Assembly: GCA_023259375.1 (NCBI GenBank)
Contig: JAHFQC010000006.1
Location: 1-64,000, forward strand
From: Alphaproteobacteria bacterium
GTDB lineage: Bacteria > Pseudomonadota > Alphaproteobacteria > Micropepsales > Micropepsaceae
Length of the DNA: 64,000 nucleotides
Direction of reading: 5' to 3'
Part shown: positions 11,570 to 27,034 of the stretch, piece by piece
How positions within the stretch are numbered: position 1 is the first letter of the stretch
Layout of the letters: each line of letters begins with the position of its first letter
Translations under genes and position numbers: made by a program
Notes under the pieces: generated by a model
What the model saw: only the letters and a program-made list of their open reading frames with translations
What the model was told of the DNA's origin: nothing
Database searches by the model: none

Positions 11570-13789
11570 ATGGCCAATCTTCTGTTGCTCAGTTACGCCT
11601 TTCAGCCCGACAACACGCCCGCCGCGGCGCGGCCAAGCCAGCTTTTCCGTTATCTGCCGGAATTCGGCGTCACACCATTCGTGTTCGCGTCGTCGGTGGA
11701 GGGCAGCGTCAATCCGGAGACGACGGTCTGGCGCGTGCCGGAACAAAGGGAGGCGGCCGGCCTGGTGGCGGCTTCGGCGGCGGCGCGCGTATTCATGCGC
11801 TTTGCCGCGCCATACAACGATCGCCTGCCGTGGGTGCCGTATGCCGCCGCCGCCGCCGCGCGGTTGATCCGGGCACGGAAGATCGATGCGATCTATTCCA
11901 CGTCGCCGTTTCTCGCCTCGCATTTCGCGGCGCTGTGGCTGAAGCAGAAGTTCGGATTGCCGTGGATCGCCGATTTCCAGGACCCGGTTTGCGACAATCC
12001 GTTCCGCAACCGCAATTGGTTCTATCCTTACGATCCGCTGCTGGAGCGGCGAATCTTCGAACGCGCCGATCATGTGATCGCCAATACCGACGTCATCGCT
12101 GAGGTTTGGCGGCAGCGCTATCCGGCGCGCCGCGATGCCATATCCGTGCTGTGGAACAGCTACGATCCCGACGAGGCGATCGAGCGGGTGCCGTCGGCCG
12201 TGCGCGACCATCGCGTCCTGGCGCACATCGGCACGCTTTATGGCGGCCGTCATCCCGGCCAGTTGCTCGGCTCGCTCAAGCGGCTCGGCACGCGTGCCGA
12301 TGCGCTGCGGGTGAAGCTGATCGGTCCGATCGACGAGGCGGTGCTGAGCGCGCATGGCGCTTCGCTGGCGTCTAGTGAGGTGGTCGAAGTCACCAATGCG
12401 CTGGTGCCGCGTGAAGAGGCATTGCGCGAAACCGCCGAAGCCGATTGCCTGCTGCTGCTCGACGTCAACGAGCGCAATACCGCCTTCCAGGTGCCGTCGA
12501 AGCTGCTCGACTATATCCGGATCGGTAAACCCATTCTCGCTTATACGCCGGCGGATTCGCCGGTCGACCGCATCCTGCAGCAGAGCGGCATCGCCTACGC
12601 CGTGATCGCGCCCGACATGCCGGAGGCTGAAGCGGACCGCCGGGTGCAGAAATTCCTGTCGCTGCCGCTGACGGTGCGCGAACCTTCGCCGTGGTTCGTG
12701 CGGACCTTTAGCGCCAGAACGCAGGCAGCCACCGTGGCCGAGATGGTGCAGGGGCTGGTCAAGCCGCAAGTCCGCACCGCAAAGCGCGCGCGGCCCTCCG
12801 CCGAACGTCCGCTGATCGTCACATCGGTCGATGCCGAAGAAGCGTTCGATTGGGAAAAGCCGCTGTCGCGCGACTTCCGTAATGTCGCTTCGATGAACGA
12901 GCAGGTCGTGCTGCATCGCGTGTTCGACCGGTTTGGCGTCGTGCCGACCTACTTCGTCACCTATCCGATCGTGACCCAACCCGACGGCTATGCCTTTCTC
13001 GCGGAATGCCTTAAGGCGGGAAAATGCCAGATCGGCGCCCAGCTCCATCCGTGGGTGACTCCGCCGTACGAAGAGGTGGTGAACGCCTATAACAGTTTTG
13101 CCGGCAACTTGCCCGAGGCGCTGGAGCGCGACAAGCTGAGGACGTTGACCGAGGCCATCGCGACGCGTTTCGGCGTGCGTCCAACGGCCTATCGCGCTGG
13201 CCGCTACGGTGTCGGGCCGAATACGGTGAAGACGCTTGCGGCGCTCGGCTATCGAGTCGATTCCAGCGTGGTGCCGGAATTCTCCTATCACGTGACGGGC
13301 GGGCCGACCTTCTTCGGACGGCCGACGACCCCTTATTGGCTCGATGCCGAGCGGCGCGTGCTCGAATTGCCGCTGACCTCGACCTATATCGGGCATTTGT
13401 CGCGCGGAAACTGGCGCCATCTCGCCAACGGACTGTTCGAGAACGACGCCCGTCATGCTCTGGCGCGATCTGTGATGGCGCGCACCGGCATGATGGAGCG
13501 CATCCGCCTGACGCCGGAAGGCACCAACGTCTCCGATGCCAAGCGACTGGTGCGCGCCTTGCTCAAGCGCGGCACCCGTGTTTTCACGCTGTCCTATCAC
13601 ACGCCGTCGCTGCTGCCCGGCAATACGCCCTATGTGAGAAGCCGCGCCGACCGCGACCGTTTCATCGGCTGGTTCGAGGAGTTTTACGAATTCTTCCTCG
13701 GCGAGGTCGGAGGTGCGCCGGCGACGATCGAAAACATCTATGATGAGGCGCGCGCCACCTGCAAGGATCTGGCGCCGGCGCTGCCATGA
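11570..13789 (+). CDS. fusion of GT4-like glycosyltransferase and polysaccharide deacetylase
   Basis: A 739-residue two-domain protein. Residues 1 to about 395 are a GT-B glycosyltransferase (N-terminal LLLSYAFQPDNTPAAARP, acceptor-side DFQDPVCDNPF, C-terminal FQVPSKLLDYIRIGKPILAY). From about residue 413 a WalW-like polysaccharide deacetylase domain begins with IVTSVDAEEAFDWE (metal-binding Asp region), then IGAQLHPWVTPP and PTAYRAGRYG. The ATG follows the sulfotransferase stop by two bases and the stop overlaps the next glycosyltransferase in ATGA. The fusion would let sugar addition and N-deacetylation be coupled on the cytosolic side. No frameshift or internal restart is seen between the domains. 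Confidence 0.82.
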   Translation: MANLLLLSYAFQPDNTPAAARPSQLFRYLPEFGVTPFVFASSVEGSVNPETTVWRVPEQREAAGLVAASAAARVFMRFAAPYNDRLPWVPYAAAAAARLIRARKIDAIYSTSPFLASHFAALWLKQKFGLPWIADFQDPVCDNPFRNRNWFYPYDPLLERRIFERADHVIANTDVIAEVWRQRYPARRDAISVLWNSYDPDEAIERVPSAVRDHRVLAHIGTLYGGRHPGQLLGSLKRLGTRADALRVKLIGPIDEAVLSAHGASLASSEVVEVTNALVPREEALRETAEADCLLLLDVNERNTAFQVPSKLLDYIRIGKPILAYTPADSPVDRILQQSGIAYAVIAPDMPEAEADRRVQKFLSLPLTVREPSPWFVRTFSARTQAATVAEMVQGLVKPQVRTAKRARPSAERPLIVTSVDAEEAFDWEKPLSRDFRNVASMNEQVVLHRVFDRFGVVPTYFVTYPIVTQPDGYAFLAECLKAGKCQIGAQLHPWVTPPYEEVVNAYNSFAGNLPEALERDKLRTLTEAIATRFGVRPTAYRAGRYGVGPNTVKTLAALGYRVDSSVVPEFSYHVTGGPTFFGRPTTPYWLDAERRVLELPLTSTYIGHLSRGNWRHLANGLFENDARHALARSVMARTGMMERIRLTPEGTNVSDAKRLVRALLKRGTRVFTLSYHTPSLLPGNTPYVRSRADRDRFIGWFEEFYEFFLGEVGGAPATIENIYDEARATCKDLAPALP

Positions 13790-14799
13790 AACCGCATATC
13801 GTATTGTTGCCATCGAACCGGCTGCAGAAGTCTGGCGCGCCGCCGCCGCGTTTCGGCATCGCCGAAGCGTTCGAGCGGCAGGGGTTTTCGGCCGAAGTGC
13901 TGGACGTGAACGAATCCCCGCGCAATCCCTTTGCCGGATGCGTGTCACTGTTCGCGAGTGTCGATCCCTGGCGTGCCGCGAAAATTCTGTTCGGCCGGCG
14001 CAAGGCGTATGCCGTGGTGTCCTATTATCAGTCCGGCGCGCTTCTGATCCTGGCGCTGCGACGGCTCCTTGGGTTCAAGCCGCTGGTGGTGATTGTCGAT
14101 GTCGGTGACGACTCCAATTGGCCTTTGCGCGCACGGATCGTTGCGTTTTGCCTAAAGCGGGCCGATGCGGTGTTCAGCTTTGCCAGCGATCAGACCGCCT
14201 ATCTGGCGCGCCGCTATCCGGGCGCCAGGGTTCAATTCCTGCCGCAGCAGATCGATACCGCGTTCTTCACACCGGCGGAGGGCGATGGCAGCTATATTCT
14301 CTCCGTCGGCAACGACCTGTCGCGCGATTACGACACGCTGCTTGAAGCCGTTCGCGATCTCGACGTGCCGCTGAAATTGCGCACCGACTGCGTCCCGCCG
14401 CGCCCGGGTCTCACGATCGCGCCGCGCGGCGACGACGAAGCCCTGCGCGCGCTCTATCGGGCGGCAAAGATCGTGGGGCTGCCGCTGCACGACATGCGCC
14501 ATCCCGGCGGAATTTCGAGTCTGTTCGAGGCGTTCGCCTGCGGCAAGGCGGTGGTGGCGAGCGATGCGCGCGGCATTCGCGATTATCTGCAGCACGAAGA
14601 GAACTGTCTGGTCGTTCCCAGCGGCGATGTCGCGGCTTTGCGGGCGGCTGTCTTGCGCTTGCTGCAGGATGAGGGATTACGTCTGCGATTGGGCAAGGCG
14701 GCGCGGCGCTATGCCGAAACGGAACTTTCGCAGGACCGCTATGCCGCGCGCCTCAAGAATGCTTTCGCGGCGCTAAGGCCGTTTCCGACGATTGTGTAA
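13786..14799 (+). CDS. GT4-family glycosyltransferase
   Basis: A 337-residue protein with a GT-B layout. The C-terminal half carries LPLHDMRHPGGISSLFEAFACGKAVVASDARG, the GT4 nucleotide-sugar motif with its EAF...G pattern. The N-terminal acceptor domain (HIVLLPSNRLQKSGAPPPRF) is diverged. The ATG overlaps the stop of the upstream fusion gene, so the two are translationally coupled. Its last 47 bases overlap the end of a small convergent membrane-protein gene. Confidence 0.85.
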   Translation: MKPHIVLLPSNRLQKSGAPPPRFGIAEAFERQGFSAEVLDVNESPRNPFAGCVSLFASVDPWRAAKILFGRRKAYAVVSYYQSGALLILALRRLLGFKPLVVIVDVGDDSNWPLRARIVAFCLKRADAVFSFASDQTAYLARRYPGARVQFLPQQIDTAFFTPAEGDGSYILSVGNDLSRDYDTLLEAVRDLDVPLKLRTDCVPPRPGLTIAPRGDDEALRALYRAAKIVGLPLHDMRHPGGISSLFEAFACGKAVVASDARGIRDYLQHEENCLVVPSGDVAALRAAVLRLLQDEGLRLRLGKAARRYAETELSQDRYAARLKNAFAALRPFPTIV

Positions 14800-14902
14800 G
14801 TTGAAGGCGCGTCTCGCGATGACCGCCCAGATAGTAGCCGATCAGCGGTGCCGCTACGGCGGAAACCGCGACCCAGATGCCCAATGCAATCACCAGCGTC
14901 AT
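14753..14902 (-). CDS. 49-residue single-pass membrane protein, twin of 26885-27034
   Basis: A short frame encoding one membrane helix near the N-terminus (MTLVIALGIWVAVSAVAAPL) followed by IGYYLGGHRE and a polar tail. The ATG at 14902 has a strong AAGGAG ribosome site eight bases upstream, which supports real translation. The WVxxSxxAxPLxG core is shared with another 49-residue frame in the same locus at 26885-27034, on the same strand and also tail-to-tail with an exopolysaccharide gene. No known family was recognised. The 47-base overlap with the convergent glycosyltransferase is unusual and lowers confidence. Confidence 0.5.
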   Translation of the reverse strand: MTLVIALGIWVAVSAVAAPLIGYYLGGHRETRLQLTQSSETALAPRKHS

Positions 14903-15030
14903 GTGCCCGTCTCCTTGAGGGCAAGATAGCGTGGTTGCGGGCATTCCGTAACCGCCGAGCCGATTTCGGTAACAGCTTTTTTTTGTCGTACGACTAAGAA
15001 ACGCGCGAGAGGTGATCGGGATTAACATTG

Positions 15031-15047
15031 CTTGTAATATAAACAAG
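15031..15047. promoter_or_regulatory. inverted repeat upstream of the dwarf sugar transferase
   Basis: CTTGT (15031-15035) and ACAAG (15043-15047) form an inverted repeat with a 7-base AT-rich spacer. It lies in the 236-base gap between the 49-residue gene and the gene at 15139. The same gap has an eight-T run ending at 14984 followed by the palindrome GTCGTACGAC (14985-14994). These are candidate operator or promoter elements only; no -35/-10 pair was convincing. Confidence 0.25.
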
Positions 15048-15138
15048 ACATGCCGTCATCGTCACAGCGGTTGCGATTGCATTCACGCTGCAAACTTGCT
15101 TCAACTTGTAGCGATCACGAACGAGAAAGAGGAGCACG

Positions 15139-15486
15139 ATGACCATCCGGCGTCTGGGCGATATCGCAATGGCCTTGGCACTTCTCTTCGTCTGCCTGCC
15201 TGTGATTGTCCTTGCCGCGACGGCAGTTTCGATCGAGCTGGCGGCGTCTCCGCTTGTCCGCGTCGAACGGGTGACCCGCGACGGCCGCATTGTGCGGTTA
15301 TGGCGGCTGCGCACCACGCGCGCCAAGGGCCGGCAACTGACGCAGACCGGCGCCATCCTGCACCGCTATCATCTCGAGCAGATTCCGCAGCTCTTGAACG
15401 TGATGACCGGCGACTTGTCGTTCCTGTCCGCCGAGGGCACGCATCACACGGCGGTCGGCAAGACCTTTGCGCTGCGCGAGCGCTAA
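15139..15486 (+). CDS. dwarf sugar-transferase-like protein lacking the catalytic Asp-Glu
   Basis: A 115-residue relative of bacterial sugar transferases (polyprenyl-phosphate glycosyl-1-phosphate transferases such as WcaJ and EpsB). It keeps the N-terminal membrane segment (LGDIAMALALLFVCLPVIVL), a remnant of the KFRTM region (VRLWRLRTT) and the PQLLNVMTGDLSFL segment. The family's catalytic pair, Asp-Glu in DE(L/I)PQL, is Glu80-Gln81 here (LEQIPQLL). The protein ends before the GPRP motif and lacks the whole C-terminal part. It is probably not a transferase; it could be a regulatory partner or a decaying fragment. The ATG at 15139 follows AAAGAGGAG, a good ribosome site, and the next gene starts 9 bases after its stop. 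Confidence 0.75.
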   Translation: MTIRRLGDIAMALALLFVCLPVIVLAATAVSIELAASPLVRVERVTRDGRIVRLWRLRTTRAKGRQLTQTGAILHRYHLEQIPQLLNVMTGDLSFLSAEGTHHTAVGKTFALRER

Positions 15487-15495
15487 CACAAGTTC

Positions 15496-16581
15496 ATGCC
15501 TCCCACGCTGCTGCACGTTTTCCCGAGCTTTGCCGTCGGCGGATCGCAAGCGCGCTTTGCGGTCGTCGCCAACCGGCTCGGCGACCGCTTCCGCCACATC
15601 GTCGTTTCGATGGACGGGCGCGAGGATTGCCGCGAGCGGCTTGATTCCGGGCTCGACATTGCTTTCGAGAAGCTGGCGCTGCGGCCGCGCGATACGCTCG
15701 GCAATTGGCGCCGCTTTCGCGCCTTCCTCTCCCGCGTGCGGCCGCACCGGCTTGTCACCCATAACTGGGGCAGCATCGAGTGCGCCATGGCCAACTGGCC
15801 GAGGCTTGCCGGACACGTCCATATTGAAGACGGCTTCGGTCCGGAAGAAGCCAACCGGCAACTGCCGCGGCGAGTCCTGACACGACGCTATGTGCTGGCC
15901 CGCAGCACCGTCGTGCTGCCGTCGCGCACGCTGTTTGCGCTGGCCAAGGACGTGTGGCGTCTGAGCCCATCCGTGCTGCGCTATGTTCCGAACGGGGTCG
16001 ATTGCGCGCGTTTCGGCGCCTCCGGTATCGAGCCCTACGCCTGGGCGGGCGAGGGGCCGGTTATCGGCACGGTGGCGGCGCTGCGGCCGGAGAAGAATCT
16101 CATCCGACTGCTCGATGCCTTCCGGATCGTCCGCGCCCAGACGCCGTGCCGGCTGTTGATCGCGGGCGACGGACCGGAACGCCCCCATCTCGAGGCGCAT
16201 GCGGCGGCCTTGGGGCTTGGCGCCGATATCCGCTTTGCCGGCCATATCCGCGAGACGGAAAAGATCTACGCGGCGCTTTCCGTGCTCGCGCTGTCGTCCG
16301 ATACCGAGCAGATGCCGACTGCGGTGCTGGAAGCGATGGCGGCCGGCCTGCCGGTGGTCTCGACCGATGTCGGCGATGTGACGGCCATGGTCGCGACGGA
16401 AAATCGCGCACTGGTGGTGCCGCGTGACGCCAGCGCGCTGGCGGAAGGGCTTTTGCGGCTTGTGATCAATCCTGACGCTGCGTCGCAAATCGGTTCCGCC
16501 AATCGCATCAAGGCCTGCCGCGACTACGGCGAAGATCGTATGGTGGCGACCTACGAGGCCTTGTACGGAGGAGCAGCATGA
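15496..16581 (+). CDS. GT4-family glycosyltransferase
   Basis: A 361-residue GT-B enzyme. The N-terminus has the donor-loop signature VFPSFAVGGSQARF and the C-terminal domain has IGTVAALRPEKNLIRLLDAF, AGDGPERPHLE and QMPTAVLEAMAAGLPVVSTDVG. The layout is that of retaining GT4 enzymes using nucleotide sugars. It lies in a short run with the dwarf sugar transferase and a small membrane protein, with which it overlaps (ATGA). Probably adds one sugar to the lipid-linked repeat unit; the sugar cannot be predicted. Confidence 0.9.
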   Translation: MPPTLLHVFPSFAVGGSQARFAVVANRLGDRFRHIVVSMDGREDCRERLDSGLDIAFEKLALRPRDTLGNWRRFRAFLSRVRPHRLVTHNWGSIECAMANWPRLAGHVHIEDGFGPEEANRQLPRRVLTRRYVLARSTVVLPSRTLFALAKDVWRLSPSVLRYVPNGVDCARFGASGIEPYAWAGEGPVIGTVAALRPEKNLIRLLDAFRIVRAQTPCRLLIAGDGPERPHLEAHAAALGLGADIRFAGHIRETEKIYAALSVLALSSDTEQMPTAVLEAMAAGLPVVSTDVGDVTAMVATENRALVVPRDASALAEGLLRLVINPDAASQIGSANRIKACRDYGEDRMVATYEALYGGAA

Positions 16582-16796
16582 TCGGTGGCATCTTCTTCCT
16601 GGCGTCGATCATCGCGATCTTCATCGTGCTCAACTGGTTCAAAGAGAACGACAAACGCCCCGAGAACGAGCCGACGACGGGTCTGCTCGCCATGCCGTTG
16701 CCGGAGGCGGAAAAGCCGAAAGCCGCGAAGCGCTGGTCGCGGGAAGAGGCGTTGCGCAAAGCGGGGCAGGCTAGTTCGCCGAGCCAAGGCCGGTGA
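16578..16796 (+). CDS. small single-pass membrane protein
   Basis: A 72-residue protein with one strongly hydrophobic N-terminal helix (IGGIFFLASIIAIFIVLNWF) and a charged tail rich in Glu, Lys and Arg. The ATG overlaps the stop of the upstream glycosyltransferase, which supports translation. It was not recognised as a known family. Its position suggests an accessory role in the membrane glycosyltransferase complex. The last 26 bases overlap the end of the convergent beta-helix gene. Confidence 0.6.
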   Translation: MIGGIFFLASIIAIFIVLNWFKENDKRPENEPTTGLLAMPLPEAEKPKAAKRWSREEALRKAGQASSPSQGR

Positions 16797-17682
16797 GCGT
16801 GCGCGCCGGTCCTTTGACCACGTTATCGGAGAGCTGTGCGCGATCCTTGCCGGCATTATGAACGAACACGGTCGGCCGCCCGCGATTGACAAACGTATTG
16901 CCCGAAATGACGATCTCGCCCGGCTTGCGCTTGCCGCCTTCCTCGCCGATGGAAACGGCGGCGGTCGGATTCTGGCTGCGCGAACTCTTTTCCAGCGTAT
17001 TGCCGGTCATCGTCAGGCTGCCGCCGTTGGGCAGATCGACGAGATAGCTCGACGTTCCGCGCGGGCCGTCCTCGATCGTGTTGCCGACGATTTCGGTGCG
17101 GCGGGCGCGCGATTTGATGTGATGGCCCACTTGCGTGTTGATGAAGTGCGAATTCTCGACCCGGAAGAGATTGACGAAGCCGGAATAGATGCCGTGGGCG
17201 CAGCCCTTGTCCGGCAGGCAGGCGCCGTTGCCGTCGAAGGTGGAGTTGCGCACCAGCAGCGTCGCTTGCGGATTGTTGGCGGACAGGATGCCGTCCTGGT
17301 TGTTGCGGAAAATGCAGCGTTCGACGGTGAGGAACTCGCCGTTGGCGCGCACGCCCGAGCCGTTGCCTTCGGGAATTGCGGCGCCTTCGAGCGTCAGTCC
17401 GCGCAGCGTGGCGTGGGGGGCGTTGACGACGAGAATGCCGGCGTTCTGGCAGATCGCCTCACTGAGAACCGTGCCGTTTTCGCCTTCGATGGTGAGATTG
17501 TCGGTCGTCCACGCGGCGCAATCGCGATACGTGCCGGGCATGATGTGGATCGTGTCGCCAGGCTTGGCGGCGGCGATGGCCTGGCTCGGAAGCGCGTAAG
17601 GCTGGCCCGGACCGACGGTCAATGTGGCGGCGGCGGCGCCCGGCATCAGGCACGCCAAAAACACGACGCTGGGGAATCTCAC
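16771..17682 (-). CDS. secreted right-handed parallel beta-helix protein
   Basis: A 303-residue exported protein with signal peptide VRFPSVVFLACLMPGAAAA. The body starts with TLTVGPGQPYALPSQAIAAAKPGDTI, the classic opening of right-handed beta-helix proteins, and repeats short coils with Asn ladders (RNNQDGILSANN, NSTFDGNG, GNTIEDG, GNTLEKS). Such folds include pectin- and alginate-active enzymes and C5-epimerases. The GTG start at 17682 has AGGAG seven bases upstream. A much longer open frame continues upstream but only shadows the gene at 17752. Probably a polysaccharide-binding or modifying enzyme of the periplasm; activity unknown. Confidence 0.8.
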   Translation of the reverse strand: MRFPSVVFLACLMPGAAAATLTVGPGQPYALPSQAIAAAKPGDTIHIMPGTYRDCAAWTTDNLTIEGENGTVLSEAICQNAGILVVNAPHATLRGLTLEGAAIPEGNGSGVRANGEFLTVERCIFRNNQDGILSANNPQATLLVRNSTFDGNGACLPDKGCAHGIYSGFVNLFRVENSHFINTQVGHHIKSRARRTEIVGNTIEDGPRGTSSYLVDLPNGGSLTMTGNTLEKSSRSQNPTAAVSIGEEGGKRKPGEIVISGNTFVNRGRPTVFVHNAGKDRAQLSDNVVKGPARTLTGLGSAN

Positions 17683-17751
17683 GCACACACTCCTGCTTGA
17701 CGGGGAACGACGCGCATACTCTAACCGTCGCATCAGGTCGGGGCGAGTGAC

Positions 17752-18531
17752 ATGCTGTATATCCTGGCGCGCGCGATGGACGTTGTGGCGCGCCCGAGCA
17801 TGCTGATCTTCATCTGCTGCATCGCCGGACTGGTGCTTACGCTGCGTCGCAAGCATTCGGGTCGCTGGTTTCTGATCTCGGGGATCGGCGGGCTTGCGGC
17901 GTTCGCGATTCTGCCGCTGTCGACCTGGATGCTGCGTCCGCTCGAGCAACGGTTTCCGCCGCCGCAGGTGACGCATGTCGACGGCCTCGTCGTACTCGGC
18001 GGCGCCATCAGCCTGCCGCGCAGCGTCGATCGCGACACGCCGCAGCTCAACGGCATGGCGGGACGGATGACGACGTTCGCCATGCTGGCGCGGCGTTACC
18101 CCAAGGCGCGTGTGCTGTTCACCGGCGGCAGCGGCGATCCGTTCGATCAGAGCCACAATGAAGCAGCCTATGCCCGCGTGCTGTTCGACGGACTCGGTCT
18201 TCGCGACGTGCGCTACGAAAGCCGCAGCCGCAACACCCACGAGAACGCCGTCTACGGCGCGCAGATGATGCGGCCGAAAGCCGGAGAGACTTGGCTGCTC
18301 GTCACCTCCGCCGCCGATCTGCCGCGTGCGGTGGGATCGTTTCGCGGTGCCGGCTGGCCGGTGCTCGGCTATCCCGCCGACTATCACACGCTTCGCGGTA
18401 GTAGCGGGTTCTTTCCGGGTATGATTTCGGGGCTGGGCGAAGCTGATTGGGCCGCGCACGAATGGATCGGTCTGGTCGTCTATTGTTTGCGCGGCTGGAC
18501 ACCGTCGCTGTTTCCGGGACCGCAGGCATGA
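17752..18531 (+). CDS. YdcF/ElyC-family (DUF218) membrane protein
   Basis: A 259-residue protein with two N-terminal membrane helices and then the DUF218 core: VDGLVVLGGAI, RMTTFAMLARRYPKARVLFTGG, SRNTHENAVYGA and LLVTSAADLPRAVGSF. ElyC, SanA and YdcF of this family affect envelope polysaccharide and lipid-carrier metabolism. It starts 69 bases from the divergent beta-helix gene and ends in an ATGA overlap with the next gene, so these two are coupled. A role in recycling or handling undecaprenyl carrier during polymer synthesis is an inference from the family. Confidence 0.85.
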   Translation: MLYILARAMDVVARPSMLIFICCIAGLVLTLRRKHSGRWFLISGIGGLAAFAILPLSTWMLRPLEQRFPPPQVTHVDGLVVLGGAISLPRSVDRDTPQLNGMAGRMTTFAMLARRYPKARVLFTGGSGDPFDQSHNEAAYARVLFDGLGLRDVRYESRSRNTHENAVYGAQMMRPKAGETWLLVTSAADLPRAVGSFRGAGWPVLGYPADYHTLRGSSGFFPGMISGLGEADWAAHEWIGLVVYCLRGWTPSLFPGPQA

Positions 18532-19436
18532 GACTTCCCGGCCGCATCGTTCATCCCCGCTTCGCGCGTTTTACCGATTACGCGATCGAACTCGAGCAGG
18601 TCGGGCAGGGCGTGTGGGGCGCCTTTCGCGCGCTGGATCTGTCATTGGATGAGGTGATGGACATCGCTGCCGGCTGGGGGCGCGCGCTCGACGGGATCGA
18701 AAAGCCCTGGCTGTGCTGGAATGTCGACAGTGACTGGTGTCTGGTGCAGCAGAAGCTGGTGCGCGACGCCGGATGGACGCCGCTGGTCGGCTTCGATCCG
18801 CGGGTGGGGCCGCCACGCCAAACGGTGCCCGGCGCGGTGGTGTTCGATTTCAATGCGGCGCTCGGCCTGCCGCTGCTCTATCCGCATTTTCCGCTCGAAT
18901 TCGCATTCCTGTTCGCCGAGCGGATTGCGTTCTGGCATTCAGACCTGTTGATCCGTCCGGCCAAACTGGCGGGGCTGGCCGAACTCTTCCGTACGCTGAA
19001 GGACGGCCAGACCGCGGCCTGTCATGCCGATCCCGGGCTGCGGCACCGCTATCTGCCGTGGTGGCAGCGCTATTGGGAGCTGGTCGGCTGCACCACCCGC
19101 GCGGCCAGCCGCGATCAGTTCGAAAAGGGCTGCGGCTGGTGGATGGCGTGGTGGGCGCATCCCAACCAGCGGCGCGAGCGCTTCGTCCGGCGCTGGTATT
19201 ATTGGGACCACGGCGCCGGGATCTGGTACTGGCACCGCCATGCCGGCGGCGATTGCGTCGTGCTCGATGCCGACGACTTCGCGGAAGGTCATTTCACCAA
19301 GATCGGCAAGGACGATTACGTCGGCGTGCGCGAACCGAACGGCTCCGACGTCCGCCGCAATATGGGCGACGAACTGGTGCGCCATTTCGATCTCAGCGAA
19401 GCCTGTGCGCGGCTGGGTCTGTCGGACCTCATTTAG
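18528..19436 (+). CDS. unrecognised protein, Trp/Tyr-rich
   Basis: A 302-residue protein without signal peptide or membrane helix that I cannot place in any family. It is unusually rich in Trp, Tyr, His and Arg, with clusters such as RYLPWWQRYWEL, WWMAWWAHPNQRRERFVRRW and HGAGIWYWHRHAGGD. The C-terminal third (HFTKIGKDDYVGVREPNG) looks globular. The ATG overlaps the DUF218 gene stop (ATGA). Aromatic density suggests carbohydrate binding, but this is weak evidence. The stop overlaps the convergent gene by 8 bases. Confidence 0.7.
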   Translation: MRLPGRIVHPRFARFTDYAIELEQVGQGVWGAFRALDLSLDEVMDIAAGWGRALDGIEKPWLCWNVDSDWCLVQQKLVRDAGWTPLVGFDPRVGPPRQTVPGAVVFDFNAALGLPLLYPHFPLEFAFLFAERIAFWHSDLLIRPAKLAGLAELFRTLKDGQTAACHADPGLRHRYLPWWQRYWELVGCTTRAASRDQFEKGCGWWMAWWAHPNQRRERFVRRWYYWDHGAGIWYWHRHAGGDCVVLDADDFAEGHFTKIGKDDYVGVREPNGSDVRRNMGDELVRHFDLSEACARLGLSDLI

Positions 19437-21396
19437 CCGACCACGGCAGGATATCCCATTTGGGTTCGACGCCGCCGCGCGGCCGCACTGGGCGGTTCTT
19501 AAACTTGGCCCAGGCTTCATCCGCGCCCGGCACGCCGGCATCGACGGCGGCCGCCAAAGCGGGTTGCATCTGCGCGGGGTAGCCGGTGGGCGAATTCGAG
19601 TCGCCCATCATCTCGCCGGGCTGGTGCAGTTTGAACATGCGCGCCATCTCGTCGCTGGCGCAGGCGACTTTCGGACCGTCGCGCTTGTCCTTCGGAAGAT
19701 TGGCGACATAGGCATCGGCCCAGTTGGCGATGAAATGATGCGGGCGGTCCATCACCTTCATGTAGTATTTGGTCGCCATCACGTAGCAGTAGTCCGGATT
19801 GATCATCCGCTGCACCGGTGCCACGGCTTTCCAGCGCGCGAAGGGCCGGAATTCGTCGAAGCCGAGCTGCACCGCGTATTGCGCCGCCCAGGTAAGATAG
19901 TCGTCCATCCACGGCGCCACCGAGTCCGCATTGTCCGACGCGCGCAACGCGACATGGAAGATGTTCGCCTCGCGATTGTTGGTGTACGCCGCATCGTACC
20001 ATTCGGCATTGGCTTTCATCTCGCGCAGCAAGGTAGGTTTCGCGGGATCGTTGTCGGGCGTCGCCCAGGCGGCTTGTGCCAGGGTTCGCAGCGACCAGCC
20101 CTGGCCGCGGATCTGGTCCCAGCCGATCAGGCCTTTGGCGTAGCCGTGATATTCCGGCGCCGTGCCCCACGCATTCCATTGCGACCAGAACAGCAACTCT
20201 TCGAGATAATAGCGATCGCCGGTGACAAGATAGGGCACGAATGCGAGCGACGGCTCGTGCGCTGCTTCGGCCCCGTATGGCTTGGGCAGTCCGGCGAGGT
20301 CGGGCAGCGGCAGGTTGCCGTTGCCGCGTCCGACATAGTTGTAGTGCGTGCTGATCTTGGGAAATTCCTCGGTCGTTGCCGGCCGGCCGGTTTTCTCATT
20401 GCGATAATGCGACGGAAAGCTGCCGCTGAGATCGCCCGCATTGAGCATCATTTCGGACGTCTTCGAATCCATCGACAGCAGCCAGCCGACCGTCCACCCC
20501 GGCAACGGCCCGATATCTGGACGCTGGCCGGTCACCGGCATGGCGGGATAAATGATGCCGGTTTGCATCGGCCCGCGGCCCTTGCCCGAATAGACGTGAT
20601 TGAGCGCACCGAGACCGGGATCTCGGTCGGCGTCGTAGTTCGGGATCGCGCGGGAGGCTTTGAGATCGGCGATATCGTAGCGCACCGATGCATCGGCGGT
20701 GGTATCCCACCAGAACACCTGTCGCCAGCGCGTGTGCGACTGCTGCGCGATCTTGTCTTTGGAAAAGACCGTCTTGCCATGGGCGCGAATTTCCGCGGCG
20801 TACTGATAGCTTCTCGGGTTCGCGGCCCAGGTCCAGGTGTTCTCGACATCCACCTCGATGCGTAGGGGCTTGCCGGGGCCATAGCTGCGAAGGCCGAAGC
20901 GCACGCTCAAATGGGGATCGGATTTGCCGGACGCATCGTGCAACGGCGCGCCAATCCACCATTCGCTGACCAGCGGTCCGGAAAGCCACGTCTCCGGCTT
21001 GCCGCGTGCGAGCATTTCGCGCGCCGAGGCCGTGAGTTTGCGGTCGCCGAAATCGAGCGTGACCGCCGCATCGAAATCCGCGGGCAGCGACGAGAGCGCA
21101 ACCGGCGCGCCTTGCGCCGGCGTTCCGGCGACGAACTGCACGGTTCCGGTGCGTGGCACTGTCAGAACGGCCTGGCGCAGCGAGCCGTCGCGGTTCTTCG
21201 CCTTCACATCCACCTGCAGTGGGATTGCGCCTCCCGATTTGTCGGTGGCGGCGAGCGAGGTACCCGGCGGCACGGCGCCCGGCGCGAACACCATGCCGAA
21301 GGTGGCCGGCCCGTTGCCATCGACGACAACGCGCGGCAAGGCGGACGCAGGCACCGCCAGCGTGCAAGCGATCATCAGCATACGGAAGCAGTGCAT
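19429..21396 (-). CDS. secreted protein with YetA/PcRGLX-like N-terminal domain, possible polysaccharide-active enzyme
   Basis: A 655-residue exported protein with signal peptide near MHCFRMLMIACTLAVPASA. The first domain (PATFGMVFAPGAVPPGT, then SGGAIPLQVDVKAKNRDGS) resembles the N-terminal RIFT-barrel domain of YetA/PcRGLX exo-rhamnogalacturonan lyases. The C-terminal part is helical and aromatic (YYLEELLFWSQWNAWGTAPEYHGY), as in alpha/alpha toroids of polysaccharide lyases or hydrolases. Start at 21396 chosen for an AGG six bases upstream; 21411 is also possible. It likely trims or turns over the exopolysaccharide. Substrate unknown, family call tentative. Confidence 0.6.
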   Translation of the reverse strand: MHCFRMLMIACTLAVPASALPRVVVDGNGPATFGMVFAPGAVPPGTSLAATDKSGGAIPLQVDVKAKNRDGSLRQAVLTVPRTGTVQFVAGTPAQGAPVALSSLPADFDAAVTLDFGDRKLTASAREMLARGKPETWLSGPLVSEWWIGAPLHDASGKSDPHLSVRFGLRSYGPGKPLRIEVDVENTWTWAANPRSYQYAAEIRAHGKTVFSKDKIAQQSHTRWRQVFWWDTTADASVRYDIADLKASRAIPNYDADRDPGLGALNHVYSGKGRGPMQTGIIYPAMPVTGQRPDIGPLPGWTVGWLLSMDSKTSEMMLNAGDLSGSFPSHYRNEKTGRPATTEEFPKISTHYNYVGRGNGNLPLPDLAGLPKPYGAEAAHEPSLAFVPYLVTGDRYYLEELLFWSQWNAWGTAPEYHGYAKGLIGWDQIRGQGWSLRTLAQAAWATPDNDPAKPTLLREMKANAEWYDAAYTNNREANIFHVALRASDNADSVAPWMDDYLTWAAQYAVQLGFDEFRPFARWKAVAPVQRMINPDYCYVMATKYYMKVMDRPHHFIANWADAYVANLPKDKRDGPKVACASDEMARMFKLHQPGEMMGDSNSPTGYPAQMQPALAAAVDAGVPGADEAWAKFKNRPVRPRGGVEPKWDILPWSAK

Positions 21397-21503
21397 TCTT
21401 GACCTGATCATAAAGAGGGAGCTTATCATTTGGACGTCCGTCGAGCTTACGGGGAAACCACCGGGGCGCAACAGGGCGCTGTGCGGCTATCGCTGGGGAA
21501 AGT

Positions 21504-22589
21504 GTGCACGCCTTATCAAACGGTCTGGAACGCAAGAGCGGTACGACGACGTTTGCGCTCGAGCCGGTTCGCGACCTTCCGGCGCTGGAGCGGCAATGGC
21601 GGGCTCTCGATCATGGCGGCGCTCATTCCTTCTTCACGAGTTGGACCTGGGTCTCGGCACTGTTGCAGCGTGCACCCGGGCTTCTGGTCCTGAAGGCCAC
21701 GCGCGGCGGCGCGCCAGCGGGGCTTGCCTTGTGCGCCCGTAAACGCTGGCGGCGGCAGGCGTGGCTCAATGCGAGCGGCAACCGGGCGCTCGACGGGATC
21801 ATGATCGAGCACAACGGCTTTGCGCTGCCGGGCGGCGAGGACGCCGTGCTGTGGGAGGATCTGGCGCGATGGTTCGCAGACGGTGGCTTGCGGGCGGATG
21901 AGTTGGTCGTTCCGGGAACGGCCGAGCGTTGGAAGGCGTCCGGCGATCTGATCGTGCTCGACGATTGCCGCACCGCCTATCGCACGCCGCTTTCCGGCTT
22001 GGGCAGTGAAGGCGTCGCGCCGGTTCTGTCGCGCAACGCGCGTCAGCAGCTGCGCCGGTCGCTGCGCGATTTCGGCGGCGAACTGCGGATTTCCGTGGCG
22101 CCCGATGCCGAGACGGCCCTCGGCTATTTCGAGAAGATGAAAAGCCTGCATGTTCGTTCCTGGACACGCCGCGGGCGCGCCAACGCCTTCGACAATCCGG
22201 CCTTCGAACCGTTCCATCGCACCATGATCCCCGCCGGCGTTGCCGATGGTAGTGTCGATCTGATGGAGATTACCGGCGGCGACCGGGTGCTCGGCTATCT
22301 CTACAATTTTAAGCGCAACGGCGTGGTGCATTCCTATCAGAGCGGCTTCTCCGACGACGACCGGTCGCTCAGGCCGGGCTACGTCTGTCATGCGCTGGCG
22401 ATCGGTCATTACGCCAAGGCCGGCATGACGACGTACGATTTCCTGGCCGGCACCAATCGTCTGAAAACGTCGTTCGGCATCGAGACCTACGAGATGTGCT
22501 GGCGCCGCTATCGCCGTCCGACGGTCGGCTTCAGGATCGAACAATGGTTGCGCGGGTTCAGGCCGCCGCAAGCAGCCGCACGGCACTGA
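21504..22589 (+). CDS. BioF2/FemAB-type GNAT acyltransferase
   Basis: A 361-residue protein with the two-lobed architecture of the BioF2-like GNAT family. Markers are SFFTSWTWVSALLQ near the N-terminus, ARQQLRRSLRDFGG in the middle, then GYLYNFKRNGVVHSYQSGF and TYDFLAGTNRLKTSFG at the end (equivalent of the DFLRG block). A GTG at 21504 is the best available start, with GGGGAAAG very close upstream. It is divergent from the YetA-like gene. Probably acylates a sugar or carrier lipid of the exopolysaccharide pathway. Confidence 0.82.
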   Translation: MHALSNGLERKSGTTTFALEPVRDLPALERQWRALDHGGAHSFFTSWTWVSALLQRAPGLLVLKATRGGAPAGLALCARKRWRRQAWLNASGNRALDGIMIEHNGFALPGGEDAVLWEDLARWFADGGLRADELVVPGTAERWKASGDLIVLDDCRTAYRTPLSGLGSEGVAPVLSRNARQQLRRSLRDFGGELRISVAPDAETALGYFEKMKSLHVRSWTRRGRANAFDNPAFEPFHRTMIPAGVADGSVDLMEITGGDRVLGYLYNFKRNGVVHSYQSGFSDDDRSLRPGYVCHALAIGHYAKAGMTTYDFLAGTNRLKTSFGIETYEMCWRRYRRPTVGFRIEQWLRGFRPPQAAARH

Positions 22590-23496
22590 AGGAAGGATGC
22601 AGCAGCAGCGATTCCAGCGCGAACTGGCGTGCCTGCTGCCGCCGTCCGTCGGCGAGAGCGGCTTTGGTGAGGTCGAGCAGGTCCCAGGCGCGATTGGCGC
22701 GCGCCAGCCGCCGCAGCTTCGGATTGCGCACCTCGAACTCGCTGTGCAGCGTGGCGAGATAGGCGAACAGCGCCTTTTCCTCGTGCGCGAAGGTCCGGTA
22801 AAGGCTGACGTGGTGGGAAACATCGAGCTCGCCCACGGTCTCGGCGCGGAACAGGATTTTCGCGGCGCGGTCGACGAGACGGAAGGAGAGATCGCGATCT
22901 TCCGCCAGGCTGGTCTTTTCCCAATAGAGCCCCGCCTCGTGCAATAGGGTGCGGGTGGCGACCAGCGTGTCGGTGTGCAGCGTGCGGTGGCGGATGAGCC
23001 CGATCATGCCCTCGACCGGCACATGAAAAATGCCGGGCTCGTTCGCGATGGGATGGCGCTGCAGGCCGGCGCGTGCCGGGGCGTAGAGATCGCAATCCTT
23101 CACTTCGCCGAGCGCCGCCGTTTGCATGGCGGCAAAGAAGAGATCGCCGCCATGTGTCTCCATCACGCGAACCGCCGTGGAGAGGTGATCGTTGCGGATC
23201 CAGCGGTCGTCGTCGTCGCAGAACGCGACATACTTGCCGCGCGCCAGCGCGATGCCGCGGTTGCGCATCCGCGACGGTCCGCCGGGCTGGCGATCTTCGC
23301 GACGGTGGAGCTGGAAACGCTCGTCCAGCTCGATCCAGATCTCATCATAGGCCGCCAGCGTATCGGGCGACGAGCCGTCGTCGACGACGATGCATTCGAA
23401 CTCCGCCATGTCCTGGTCGCGGATGCAGGCGAGCAGGCGCTTCAGCGTCGGGGCGCGGTTCTTGGTGGCGATGACGACGGAGATCACGGGTCGCAT
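22558..23496 (-). CDS. GT2-family glycosyltransferase
   Basis: A 312-residue GT-A enzyme with VISVVIATKNRAPTLKRLL, VVDDGSS (nucleotide binding), the metal-binding FCDDDDRW, and TSLAEDRDLSFRLVD. The upstream gene at 23499-24470 is a close relative in the same orientation, two bases away, suggesting tandem duplication. The final 32 bases overlap the convergent acyltransferase. Inverting GT2 enzymes of this kind add one sugar to the repeat unit in the cytosol. Confidence 0.9.
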   Translation of the reverse strand: MRPVISVVIATKNRAPTLKRLLACIRDQDMAEFECIVVDDGSSPDTLAAYDEIWIELDERFQLHRREDRQPGGPSRMRNRGIALARGKYVAFCDDDDRWIRNDHLSTAVRVMETHGGDLFFAAMQTAALGEVKDCDLYAPARAGLQRHPIANEPGIFHVPVEGMIGLIRHRTLHTDTLVATRTLLHEAGLYWEKTSLAEDRDLSFRLVDRAAKILFRAETVGELDVSHHVSLYRTFAHEEKALFAYLATLHSEFEVRNPKLRRLARANRAWDLLDLTKAALADGRRQQARQFALESLLLHPSFSAVRLLAAA

Positions 23497-23498
23497 GT

Positions 23499-24470
23499 CT
23501 ACTGCGCCTCCGGGTGGCTTAGTTGCGATAGCGGCTCCGCCGGATGTCCGGCGAGAAGAAACCGGATCGCCGCTACGGTGGGGCGCAACAGCACCGATTG
23601 CACGGCAAGTTCGCGCGCTGCACGCGGACGACCTTCGCTGCGGGCACTCTGCGCCAGCTCGTACAGCATCCAGGCACGATAACCGCGCGCCACGCGGCGC
23701 AGTGCCGGGCTGCGCATCGTCGTTTCCGCGTGCAGCATGGCGACCACCACGAACTGGCGGATTTCGTCTTCGGTGTAGGCCTTGCAGAGACCGGTATGCG
23801 CGGTGCGGTCGTAATCCGCCGTCACGACATCGCGGTAGATGACGCGCTTGGAGCGGTCGAGCAGGCGCAAGGCGAGGTCGCGATCCTCGGCCATCGACAG
23901 CTTTTCCCAGAACAGGCCGGCCTCGCGCAGCAAGGCGGTGGATGCTACCAGGCTGTCGCAATGCAGGAAGATGTGTTTCATCGCCGCCGCCCGGTCCGCG
24001 GGCGCAACTTCGAACAATTCCGGCGCCAGCGGGCGCCGCGTCAGAAACGGACGGATGACGCCGTAGAAATCGCCGCCGAGAATCTCGCCGCTACGCGAGG
24101 TTTGCATATTGGCGAAATAGAGATCGGCATCGTGGCGGCGCATGGCCGCGACGGCCGTGCTGAGATGATCGGTGCGGACCCAGCGGTCGTCGTCATCGCA
24201 GAAGGCCACCAGCGGCGCCGTTGCCGCCGCAATGCCGCGATTGCGGGCGCGCGAAGGTCCTTCGGCGAGCGCGGTCGCCGAACGCAGCAGGCGGAAGCGC
24301 CCGTCGAGGTCCTGCCAGAGGCGATCGTAAGCCGCCTCGTCGCGCGAACCGTCGTCGACGACGATGCATTCGAAGGCGGTCAAATCCTGTGACTTCACGC
24401 AGGCAAGAAGGCGGGCCAGGCTTTCGAAGCGGTCGCGGGTGGCGATCACGACGGATACGTCGGGTGTCAT
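23499..24470 (-). CDS. GT2-family glycosyltransferase (tandem paralogue)
   Basis: A 323-residue GT-A enzyme with VSVVIATRDRFESLARLLACV, VVDDGSR, FCDDDDRW and LSMAEDRDLALRLLD. The spacing of these motifs and the C-terminal helical part (RRVARGYRAWMLYELAQSA) parallel the downstream gene, so the two are probably duplicates that diverged in specificity. They form a two-gene operon. The 249 bases upstream, shared with the divergent gene at 24720, hold no other gene; an AT-rich TATACA stretch near 24503 may be part of a promoter. Confidence 0.9.
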   Translation of the reverse strand: MTPDVSVVIATRDRFESLARLLACVKSQDLTAFECIVVDDGSRDEAAYDRLWQDLDGRFRLLRSATALAEGPSRARNRGIAAATAPLVAFCDDDDRWVRTDHLSTAVAAMRRHDADLYFANMQTSRSGEILGGDFYGVIRPFLTRRPLAPELFEVAPADRAAAMKHIFLHCDSLVASTALLREAGLFWEKLSMAEDRDLALRLLDRSKRVIYRDVVTADYDRTAHTGLCKAYTEDEIRQFVVVAMLHAETTMRSPALRRVARGYRAWMLYELAQSARSEGRPRAARELAVQSVLLRPTVAAIRFLLAGHPAEPLSQLSHPEAQ

Positions 24471-24719
24471 GCGTCCTTCGGTGAATGCGTTTGCGTCGTC
24501 ATCTATACAGGCGGCGTATTGCGGTACTACGTGCTTATACGCGAGGCCACGGCTTTTACACGGTTTGTGACGGCGGAAGCACGCTGGAAAGCTGTCGCTA
24601 CGTCAGTGTTCATCGCGTGACACGAAGCCGAAGAACGTCCGCGGCCTATACAAAACAGCGGGCGTTTGTATTGTGCGGACGCGGCAGACATTGGATGTTG
24701 CAGCAAATAGAGAGACCAC

Positions 24720-25598
24720 ATGGCGTCAACACCGAGCGTGAGCGTCGTCGTTCCCGCCCATAACGCGGCGGCAACGATCCGGCGCGCGCTGCAGTCGGTG
24801 CTGGCGCAGACCCGTCCGGCCGACGAAATCATCGTGGTTGACGACGCCAGCAGCGACGCCACGGCGGTCATCGCGTTAACGTGCCCTGGCGTCAAACTGG
24901 TGCGGCTCGCCGAGCGGCGAGGGGCTGCGGCGGCGCGCAATGCAGGAATTGCAGCCGCGAAGAGCTCCTGGATCGCATTTCTGGATGCCGACGATGTCTG
25001 GCGGCCGCAAAAGCTCGAAAAACAGCTCGGCGAAATTCACGACGGTATCAGCCTCGTATTCTGCGCCTCGGAAGAGTTCGATTGCGACGGCCGATCGTTG
25101 GGAGACACGTTTCGCGGGCATGCGGTGGAGACCGGAGCGCGGGCGTTGAAGGATTTGTTGCGGCGCAATTTCGTGGCGACGCCGACGGTGATGGCGCCGC
25201 GTGCGCTGCTGGCGCGGTTGTGTTTCGACGAAGACCTCGCGGTGGGCGAGGACCAGGACATGTGGATCCGCTTGGCGCTCGAAGGATCGCTCGCGTATGT
25301 GCCCGAAACACTGGCCGAGGTTTACGTACAGCCGGATTCGTTGTCGCGTTATCGCGGCTCGGATCAGGGCCGCTATGTGCTGCCGATGATCCGCCGCCAT
25401 GTCGAGCGGCTGCGTCATCGCCTGTCGCGCAAGGAAATCCGGACCATTCTGGCCGAGCGCTACGCCAATGCCGGTCATATCGCGCTCGCCCACCACGATT
25501 TCGCGCGCGCGGCTTCATTCTTCGCGCGGGCGCTGTTTGCGGGCTACCGGCCATCGACCTGGACCGCACCCGCGGCGCTGCGGCGGCAAGCAAGCTAG
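24720..25598 (+). CDS. GT2-family glycosyltransferase
   Basis: A 292-residue GT-A protein with VSVVVPAHNAAATIRRAL, VVDDASSD, AARNAGIAAAK, FLDADDVW and VGEDQDMWIRL. The motifs are complete, so it should be active. It is followed nine bases later by the exosortase-associated O-glycosylation ligase gene, suggesting co-transcription. It differs more from the tandem pair at 22558-24470 than those do from each other. Confidence 0.9.
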   Translation: MASTPSVSVVVPAHNAAATIRRALQSVLAQTRPADEIIVVDDASSDATAVIALTCPGVKLVRLAERRGAAAARNAGIAAAKSSWIAFLDADDVWRPQKLEKQLGEIHDGISLVFCASEEFDCDGRSLGDTFRGHAVETGARALKDLLRRNFVATPTVMAPRALLARLCFDEDLAVGEDQDMWIRLALEGSLAYVPETLAEVYVQPDSLSRYRGSDQGRYVLPMIRRHVERLRHRLSRKEIRTILAERYANAGHIALAHHDFARAASFFARALFAGYRPSTWTAPAALRRQAS

Positions 25599-25607
25599 GG
25601 GAACGAT

Positions 25608-26888
25608 TTGCGCTCACTACTGCTCCTCGTTGCGATCCTTGCCGGACTCGGCATGACGTTGCGCTGGCCGTTCGTCGGGGTGCTGATCTGGGAATGGTTC
25701 ACGCTGCAGAATCCGCATCGCGAGACCTACGGCTTCATCGGCTCCGCCAATATGGTGATCGCGCTCGTCACGCTGATCGCATGGGCGATGTCGAAAGAGC
25801 GCAAGGCCCCGCCCAACGGATTTATCCTGTGGGGCGTCATCATTTTCATCCTGTGGACGACGATCGGCACCTTCTTCGCCTACGATCCCGGCTGGTCGTG
25901 GGACTATTGGGACCGGACCTGGAAAACCTTTGCGCTCGGCATTCTGTTGGCAGCCACGGTCACCAATCGCGTGCGGGCGCAGGCGGTGATGTGGGTTGCG
26001 GTGATCTCGCTGTTCTATTATGGCGTCAAAGGCGGACTATTTACGATCGTGACGGGCGGCCATAACCATGTGCTGGGTCCGTCCGGCACCATGATCAACG
26101 ACAACAATCAGCTTGCCGTGGCGATGCTGATGACCTTGCCGCTGGCGCATTATCTGCGCGGGCAGTCGACCGACAAATGGGTCCGCCTCTCGCTGTTGGC
26201 AGGCATAGTCTTGACGGTGATCGCGGTGATCGGCACCTATTCGCGCGGCGCGCTGATCGGTCTTGCCACGCTCGGATTCCTCGGGCTTTTACGGATGAAA
26301 CGGCGGCTGACCTATATCGCCGTGGCGTCGGTGCTGATCGCCTTTACAGTGCATTTCATGCCGGCCCAGTATTTCGACCGCATGAGCACGATGAATTCGG
26401 TGTCCTCGGTACAGGAGGACCAGTCCTTCCACGGACGTATCGTGGCCTGGAAGGTGGCGTGGAATGCCGCCAAGGACCGCTTTCCGTTCGGCGCCGGATT
26501 CTACGGGCCGCAGCTGGGGCCGTTTTTCCATTCCTATTTTCCCAACGAGAAGAACCACGCCGCCCACAGCATCTACTTCCAGGTGCTGGGCGAGCACGGC
26601 TTCATCGGATTGGGGATTTATCTTCTCTTGATCGGGGCGTCGTTCTTCCGCGTGTCGCGCATCATCAAGATGGCGCGGCGGTCGGCGCAGCAGCGCTGGG
26701 TCGCCGAGCTGGGCGTGGCGCTGCAGGCCAGCTTGCTCGTGTTCTGCGTTTCGGGCGCAGCGCTCAGCCTGGCCTATTACGACCTGTTCGTAATCGTGAT
26801 CTGCCTGATGCTACCATTGTGGGAAATGGTGCGCCCGAAGCAGGGCCAGCCCGCCTGGCAGCGGGTTCCCATCTCGGCGACGGGTTAG
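25608..26888 (+). CDS. exosortase A-associated O-glycosylation ligase (Wzy/WaaL-like)
   Basis: A 426-residue polytopic inner-membrane protein of the Wzy/O-antigen ligase superfamily, in the subgroup found with exosortase A. It opens with the DUF5935-like segment (GLGMTLRWPFVGVLIWEWF, LQNPHRETYGF) and later has the ligase loop FPFGAGFYGPQLG and KNHAAHSIYFQVLGEHGF. These proteins are thought to polymerise or transfer lipid-linked glycan at the periplasmic face. A TTG at 25608 after AGGGGAA is the best start. Its stop overlaps the convergent 49-residue gene. Confidence 0.88.
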   Translation: MRSLLLLVAILAGLGMTLRWPFVGVLIWEWFTLQNPHRETYGFIGSANMVIALVTLIAWAMSKERKAPPNGFILWGVIIFILWTTIGTFFAYDPGWSWDYWDRTWKTFALGILLAATVTNRVRAQAVMWVAVISLFYYGVKGGLFTIVTGGHNHVLGPSGTMINDNNQLAVAMLMTLPLAHYLRGQSTDKWVRLSLLAGIVLTVIAVIGTYSRGALIGLATLGFLGLLRMKRRLTYIAVASVLIAFTVHFMPAQYFDRMSTMNSVSSVQEDQSFHGRIVAWKVAWNAAKDRFPFGAGFYGPQLGPFFHSYFPNEKNHAAHSIYFQVLGEHGFIGLGIYLLLIGASFFRVSRIIKMARRSAQQRWVAELGVALQASLLVFCVSGAALSLAYYDLFVIVICLMLPLWEMVRPKQGQPAWQRVPISATG

Positions 26889-27034
26889 TCGTGCGCGGTC
26901 CGGGTCCATTCCGGCGCGAGGCTTTCGTCCGGGGGCGGATCGCCGAGACGGTTCGCCACCAAGCGGCCGACCAGCGGCGTGGCAATCACGGAGATGACAA
27001 CCCAGCCGATGAGAAACCAGTCGAGAAAATCCAT
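26885..27034 (-). CDS. 49-residue single-pass membrane protein, twin of 14753-14902
   Basis: A short frame with one hydrophobic helix (FLIGWVVISVIATPLVG) and a polar tail rich in Pro, Asp and Glu. The ATG at 27034 follows AAGGAAG eight bases upstream, and the stop overlaps that of the convergent ligase gene. The WVxxSxxAxPLxG core and exact length match the protein at 14753-14902, so the two are likely homologues of an undescribed small family in this locus. Function unknown; small membrane partners of glycosyltransferase or ligase complexes are one possibility. Confidence 0.55.
   Translation of the reverse strand: MDFLDWFLIGWVVISVIATPLVGRLVANRLGDPPPDESLAPEWTRTAHD

Follow-up and report, generated by a model that had tools for sequence, protein, structure and literature searches.

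A family of small, predicted single-pass membrane proteins beside exopolysaccharide enzymes in the genus of Rhizomicrobium electricum

Described systems and the window locus

Here we describe a family of small, predicted single-pass membrane proteins represented by two 49-residue open reading frames (ORFs), ORF1 (14753..14902) and ORF2 (26885..27034), both on the minus strand of a 64,000-nt stretch of alphaproteobacterial DNA (positions 1 to 64,000 of contig JAHFQC010000006.1), hereafter the window. The closest described systems are ExoX of Sinorhizobium and PsiA of Rhizobium leguminosarum, small inner-membrane proteins of exopolysaccharide (EPS) systems that are thought to inhibit the sugar-1-phosphate transferases ExoY and PssA post-translationally, with the gene-dose ratio setting the polymer level (PMC3233446). 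The present family resembles them as a small predicted membrane protein of an EPS system and in that a gene of the sugar-transferase family adjoins 8 of its 14 copies, though this gene is short and degenerate in four of those eight; it differs from them in sitting in exosortase-A-type loci. ExoX/PsiA is the best analogue of the family, in proposed function only.

The window is an exosortase-A/PEP-CTERM exopolysaccharide locus, in which NCBIfam models place the genes for exosortase A, PrsT, PrsR and the TIGR03097 ligase together. Its small proteins share this genomic system with the described EpsH/XrtA, PrsK, PrsR, PrsT, the TIGR03097 ligase and the TIGR03013 and TIGR03088 transferases (PMC1569441). 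The PEP-CTERM signal is described as a C-terminal PEP motif, helix and basic tail on secreted proteins (PMC1569441); ORF1 and ORF2 likewise carry one hydrophobic helix followed by basic residues, but their helix is N-terminal, with no PEP motif ahead of it and none at the C-terminus. No such small protein appears in the available portions of two accounts of the PEP-CTERM system (PMC1569441, PMC9850573), and literature searches for a small membrane protein of exosortase/PEP-CTERM or Rhizomicrobium EPS systems returned nothing relevant. Unlike the named proteins of exosortase-A/PEP-CTERM loci, the window pair matches no NCBIfam model. To our knowledge, none of those named proteins is a single-pass protein of such size. 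Judged from sequence, we are dealing with a new family of a known sort, namely small, predicted single-pass proteins beside EPS enzymes.

Two small genes and their relatives

ORF1 and ORF2, the latter a likely paralogue of the former, translate as MTLVIALGIWVAVSAVAAPLIGYYLGGHRETRLQLTQSSETALAPRKHS and MDFLDWFLIGWVVISVIATPLVGRLVANRLGDPPPDESLAPEWTRTAHD, each followed by a stop codon, in agreement with the preliminary description of two 49-residue membrane proteins at these positions. The WVxxSxxAxPLxG core that they were said to share is borne out: BLASTP aligns a common stretch with 7/13 identical residues, and the six-frame translation of the window contains the strict motif twice, whereas not one of 60 second-order Markov simulations produced it; a looser form occurs four times against a simulated mean of 0.6. 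Their claimed common topology also holds, each having one N-terminal hydrophobic helix (best 19-residue mean hydropathy of 2.47 for ORF1 and 2.02 for ORF2), as do the good ribosome sites attributed to them: the Shine-Dalgarno sequence AAGGAGA of ORF1 (14910..14916, minus strand) lies 7 nt before the ATG and is kept in R. electricum, and the Shine-Dalgarno-like AAGGAA of ORF2 (27044..27049, minus strand) lies 9 nt before its ATG. The ORF1 frame can be read without a stop as far upstream as a TTG, over 97 codons; we chose as its start the ATG with the ribosome site. Scored with a codon table built from nine window genes, ORF2 reaches 12.2 in the claimed frame, with the other five frames at -0.2 or below, and the non-overlapping part of ORF1 reaches 7.1, with 0.4 for the next best frame; ORF1 as a whole scores -0.05, yet still the highest of its six frames. 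The structure model of ORF1 is one helix over residues 2-41 (predicted local distance difference test scores of 96 and 93 for the first two ten-residue blocks) with a low-confidence tail; a Foldseek search of this model against the PDB gave no match at E<=10, which is uninformative because the model is one helix. The charge pattern suggests a topology with the N-terminus outside and the C-terminus inside.

A lack of conservation in relatives had been named beforehand as grounds for abandoning the idea; what we found instead is both genes in Rhizomicrobium electricum DSM 21034, at syntenic places, and a further ten genomes of the genus reached by profile. The R. electricum ORF1 gene (L009:5001-5135), found when a public genome collection was scanned with the single sequence, is 63% identical in its best segment, and the ORF2 gene, found by searching that genome, is 76% identical; in R. 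electricum, as in the window, the last 4 nt of the ligase gene lie inside ORF2, and the homologue of the acetyltransferase gene diverges from ORF2. In single-sequence searches of the window's own genome and 60 relatives at E 0.1, ORF1 returned G017 (E 0.03, later a member) and one reject, and ORF2 two weak matches, neither of which was accepted. Rejected single-sequence matches were L004, antisense to a 681-residue frame that is secretin-like by eye, and a Planctomycetia match (L010), antisense to a long frame and alike only in a short LGGHRETRLQ run without the helix core.

Profile searches reached further. A four-sequence profile built from the window and R. electricum only, run against 100 genomes (58 with some match at E<=1), found G078, G073, G080, G067, G072 and G081 at E 4.0e-12 to 6.9e-5. 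With a ten-row profile, 14 of 69 genus genomes matched at E<=0.01: eight strong ones (E 1.9e-16 or better), all in-sample as contributors of rows to that profile; four weaker ones with short frames new to it (G101, G017, G076 and G105; E 3.8e-5 to 9.7e-5); and two that were rejected, G069 with a match inside a 1107-codon frame and G033 with a 198-codon frame without the core. This gives 14 copies in 12/69 genus genomes, two each in the window genome and R. electricum and one each in ten others, with no further copy in the 12 at E<=0.01. Run on 4069 frames, a final 14-row profile gives its members E 7.5e-15 or better and the best of the other frames E 0.4, a gap that speaks for coherence and is no independent test, because the members are in the model.

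The equal length of the window pair does not extend to the family, whose 14 proteins span 40-83 residues. The Trp and Ser of the W...S core are invariant in all 14, one Leu before the Trp is nearly so, and the Pro is found in 12/14, with Gly in its place in G076 and G105. An ATG start is available in every copy, and where a frame extends open beyond it we set the start at this ATG; a match of at least 5 bases to the anti-Shine-Dalgarno complement precedes 8/14 of these starts and one of at least 4 bases 10/14, compared with background rates of 5.3% and 22.6% of the 1806 ATGs of the window. Pfam holds no match for the ORF1 or ORF2 protein at E<=10, and ten members scanned together gave three single-member Pfam matches (best E 0.039), none convincing; these ten are the members other than the four weaker ones, and the NCBIfam scan covered the window pair.

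Outside the genus, 385 genomes drawn from the class yielded nothing convincing, with up to 15 candidates scored per genome (weak members may escape) and a few of these genomes belonging to the genus; two weak matches there, in G041 and G343, lie in frames of 1030 and 758 codons and were rejected. Eight other genomes, with up to 150 candidates each, likewise gave nothing convincing, their ten weak matches (E 0.018 or worse, frames of at least 110 codons) being rejected, nor did 1262 frames from the neighbourhoods of TIGR03097-like ligases in three of the eight (best E 0.3). Within the genomes searched, the family is thus seen only inside the genus of R. electricum. There the proposal that these loci go with a small-protein family not described before is supported, with EPS-type neighbours for nearly all its copies and a window pair matched by neither Pfam nor NCBIfam; for a wider reach the genomes searched offer nothing convincing.

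It might be argued that the two frames are no genes at all and are open by chance, preserved only through conserved DNA and through the end of a glycosyltransferase gene that overlaps. The comparison with R. electricum lends this some substance: at such divergence, spurious frames that likewise seem conserved are numerous, the ORF1 tail shares 47 nt with another gene, and the ratio of the nonsynonymous to the synonymous proportion of differences (pN/pS) of ORF1 over 44 codons is a weak 0.79, where two glycosyltransferase genes of the neighbourhood, taken as yardsticks, have 0.16 and 0.23. Outside the overlap, moreover, ORF1 DNA is 76% identical to R. electricum, as against 80.5% for the adjacent upstream intergenic DNA. 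Because of this ratio and this identity, the ORF1 pair alone proves little, and given the apparent conservation of spurious frames in this species pair, it is the more diverged genomes that carry the argument. Across the 12 genomes the core is kept despite a core nucleotide identity that is often 40-60%, with an ATG available in each. ORF2, for its part, overlaps its neighbour by just 4 nt, has a full-length pN/pS of 0.44 against R. electricum and is 83% identical there over 150 gap-free nt, compared with 70% in the 64 nt upstream. The gaps between ORF1 and its R. electricum orthologue (6 and 9 nt) keep the frame, with gaps of 1 and 2 nt in the neighbouring intergenic DNA, and the codon bias of both genes lies in the claimed frame.

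Over the 24-codon core, the mean pS of all pairs is 0.65 and the mean pN 0.41. The ratio is 0.35 for the window and R. electricum copies of ORF2, 0.52 for those of ORF1, 0.21 for the orthologous pair G080/G072 and 0.20 for G076/G105; it exceeds 1 in four pairs (ORF2 of the window and of R. electricum, each compared with G073 and with G067) and is near 1 in several others. Third codon positions account for 41.7% of core differences, a share reached by 3 of 5000 column shuffles, with kinship ignored. By these comparisons the family core shows purifying selection, and we regard chance frames as very improbable. We are, conversely, highly confident of a real conserved family, and ORF1 and ORF2 are, judged by sequence, real genes and likely paralogues within an undescribed family of 40-83-residue, predicted single-pass membrane proteins.

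Gene neighbourhoods and co-occurrence

Both frames had been described as lying tail-to-tail with an exopolysaccharide gene. This is so in the window, where ORF1 overlaps by 47 nt a glycosyltransferase-like gene (13786..14799, plus strand; best model match 41 bits, below cut-offs) and ORF2 overlaps by 4 nt the gene of the exosortase-A-associated O-ligase TIGR03097 (25608..26888, plus strand); it does not serve as a rule for the family, in which the divergent 5' neighbour is constant instead. The nearest called 5' gene is transcribed divergently in 14/14 copies, as called with our own caller (frames of at least 80 codons) plus the short transferase frames of the window, R. electricum and other loci. 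These neighbours are of four kinds: a PF02397 sugar transferase, a PF13480 acetyltransferase, a conserved gene of 191-207 residues and a PEP-CTERM-type gene. A short gene of the sugar-transferase family lies opposite ORF1 in both the window and R. electricum and opposite the G078 and G067 copies, and a full-length one opposite the G073 copy. The PF13480 gene diverges from 5/14 copies, namely window ORF2 (a GNAT acetyltransferase-like gene at 27099..28172, plus strand), G101, G105 and G076 by Pfam and R. electricum ORF2 by sequence; in G076 the PF13480 frame as called runs into the small gene and probably starts further in. The G080 and G081 copies face a homologue of the window gene at 28169-28792 and the G072 copy one alike by eye, and in all three genomes the next gene on the strand of the small gene is a full-length PF02397 gene. 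The G017 copy alone (1/14) faces a PEP-CTERM-type gene, with a frame that is nitroreductase-like by eye on its other side. Altogether, a sugar transferase gene adjoins 8/14 copies (seven by PF02397, that of R. electricum by alignment), and in nine of the ten further genus genomes the copy lies beside exopolysaccharide-type sugar-transferase, acetyltransferase or ligase genes, G017 being the tenth.

These neighbourhoods bear on a reading in which the family is real and serves the polymerase/O-ligase or export complex as a structural or assembly subunit, with no part in regulating chain initiation. Copies of the ORF2 type do adjoin, or lie within ~1.3 kb of, a TIGR03097 ligase gene (window, G101 and G105) or its homologue (R. 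electricum); the eight transferase-linked copies have a sugar transferase gene beside them instead, and six genomes with a TIGR03088-like gene manage without any copy. We consider such a subunit unlikely.

The gene for the TIGR03088-like glycosyltransferase, which in the window lies at 15496..16581 on the plus strand (166 bits, under the model cut-off of 409), is present in 17/69 genus genomes at E<=1e-30. It occurs in all eight genomes with strong family matches and in 9/61 others (Fisher p 2.9e-6), and in 11/12 copy-bearing genomes and 6/57 others (Fisher p 7.4e-8), kinship being ignored in both tests. The exception, G101, is without it at this threshold but has a TIGR03097 ligase gene beside the small gene. 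Such co-occurrence speaks against a general membrane role (stress, lipid or small-signal) for a family found in these loci by ancestry, in genomes that share the locus, as do the presence of copies at several different places inside such loci and the lack of any other copy at E<=0.01 in the 12 genomes. A general role would fit the family's confinement to one genus, the G017 copy with no EPS enzyme adjoining and the fact that single-pass helices with few fixed residues are common; on balance we find it distinctly unlikely, and we think it quite probable that the family functions within the EPS/exosortase pathway.

The intergenic region at 14903..15138, from which ORF1 and the sugar-transferase-like gene diverge, has 190/236 aligned bases identical to R. 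electricum. An imperfect palindrome at 14975-15004, around GTCGTACGAC, lies in this region and was dropped as an element, not being conserved in R. electricum. A search of the window for sigma-54-type sites, with 2 mismatches allowed, gave 10 matches where 13.5 would be expected, and so no signal. In G017, the gene opposite the small one (L057:420-1328, minus strand) has a PEP-CTERM-type ending and resembles the flocculation protein PepA, with 56.6 bits against a cut-off of 80.

A possible role in chain initiation

Taken as a whole, the reading we favour is of an undescribed family tied to these loci and most likely acting as an accessory or regulator of exopolysaccharide chain initiation, a proposal whose chances we see as evenly balanced. 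Its family part rests on conservation, synteny, the W...S....P hydrophobic core, the association with EPS/exosortase-type genes and the divergent placement. The small protein would sit in the inner membrane, N-terminus outside and C-terminus inside, where its conserved helix, with Trp, Ser and usually Pro, would bind a membrane enzyme of the same locus. The most likely partner would be the chain-starting polyprenyl-phosphate sugar transferase, and binding would adjust the amount of polymer started, as proposed for ExoX/PsiA acting on ExoY/PssA. Expression may come from a bidirectional control region common with the gene faced. That the protein is a regulator or accessory of the initiating transferase specifically is a tentative suggestion, made by analogy.

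Several observations, together with the ORF1 comparison given above, weigh against this proposal. In four of the eight transferase-linked loci, the DE of full-length sugar transferases, which we take to be the Asp-Glu catalytic dyad, is replaced by EQ (window and R. electricum), DR (G078) or DH (G067). An Asp-Glu dyad of this kind is mentioned in PMC10942596. The degenerate transferase of these loci, in the window a C-terminally truncated PF02397 sugar-transferase-like gene of 115 aa (15139..15486, plus strand), is probably inactive, and an active transferase as the target is weakened accordingly; the window's full-length TIGR03013 enzyme is encoded ~24 kb from the small gene. The TIGR03088-like glycosyltransferase gene lies on a different contig from the small gene in G017 and G105 and ~18 kb from it in G081. 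Moreover, whole-genome profile searches and fetched regions, several of them ending at contig ends, revealed no copy in 6 of the 17 genomes with this glycosyltransferase (G031, G003, G082, G103, G104 and G107), so the small gene is dispensable for such loci. Finally, exosortase A was searched for and identified in the window alone, the locus type of the other 11 genomes being based on glycosyltransferase, ligase, transferase or PEP-CTERM-type genes.

Among the remaining genes of the window, the locus type is given by exosortase A with its EpsI domain (TIGR03109, TIGR02914; 51836..53380, plus strand). All six NCBIfam-assigned genes exceed the curated cut-offs: TIGR03109 (284.9 bits against 208), the chain length determinant TIGR03007 (46220-47764), the full-length transferase TIGR03013 (39023-40594), the ligase TIGR03097 (409.3 against 188.1), PrsT (TIGR02917; 28850-31651; 493.2 against 312.2) and PrsR (TIGR02915; 31668-33035; 602.8 against 502.6). 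The short transferase-like gene at 15139-15486 has a pN/pS of 0.33 against R. electricum and is therefore perhaps a pseudoenzyme kept by selection. The gene at 28169..28792 (plus strand) encodes a 207-aa protein that belongs to no known family and has a hydrophobic start with (E/D)WQ.L; in G080 and G081 the homologue of this gene and the small gene are transcribed divergently, and its relatives lie near acetyltransferase or sugar-transferase genes in G080, G081 and G101 and, by eye, in R. electricum. A second small membrane-type protein of 72 aa, beginning MIGGIFFLASIIAIFIVLNWFKEND, is encoded at 16578-16796 (plus strand), its start overlapping the stop of the TIGR03088-like glycosyltransferase gene (ATGA); it is 82% identical in R. 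electricum with a pN/pS of 0.20 and has no Pfam or NCBIfam match. By eye, similar frames lie near exosortase ligase genes in G003 (L100:13003-13236, minus strand) and G105 (L094:3840-4022, minus strand).

Going beyond chain initiation, one might imagine a dedicated membrane switch of exosortase-A loci, under bidirectional control with the key gene it faces (a chain-starting transferase, an acetyltransferase or a PEP-CTERM substrate), that would hold or release polymer synthesis in step with protein sorting and that in the window lineage would sit beside a conserved, catalytically dead transferase fragment; we offer this as speculation and think it improbable. What is known of exosortase-A loci comes mostly from genes that are large and readily called, and a tiny membrane protein recurring in them would be a missing component, easily passed over in genetic and biochemical studies. 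Such a protein might connect polymer synthesis with protein sorting, and it offers a simple target for testing in a type strain, R. electricum DSM 21034. The family also hints that EPS clusters may hold other small proteins that escape notice.

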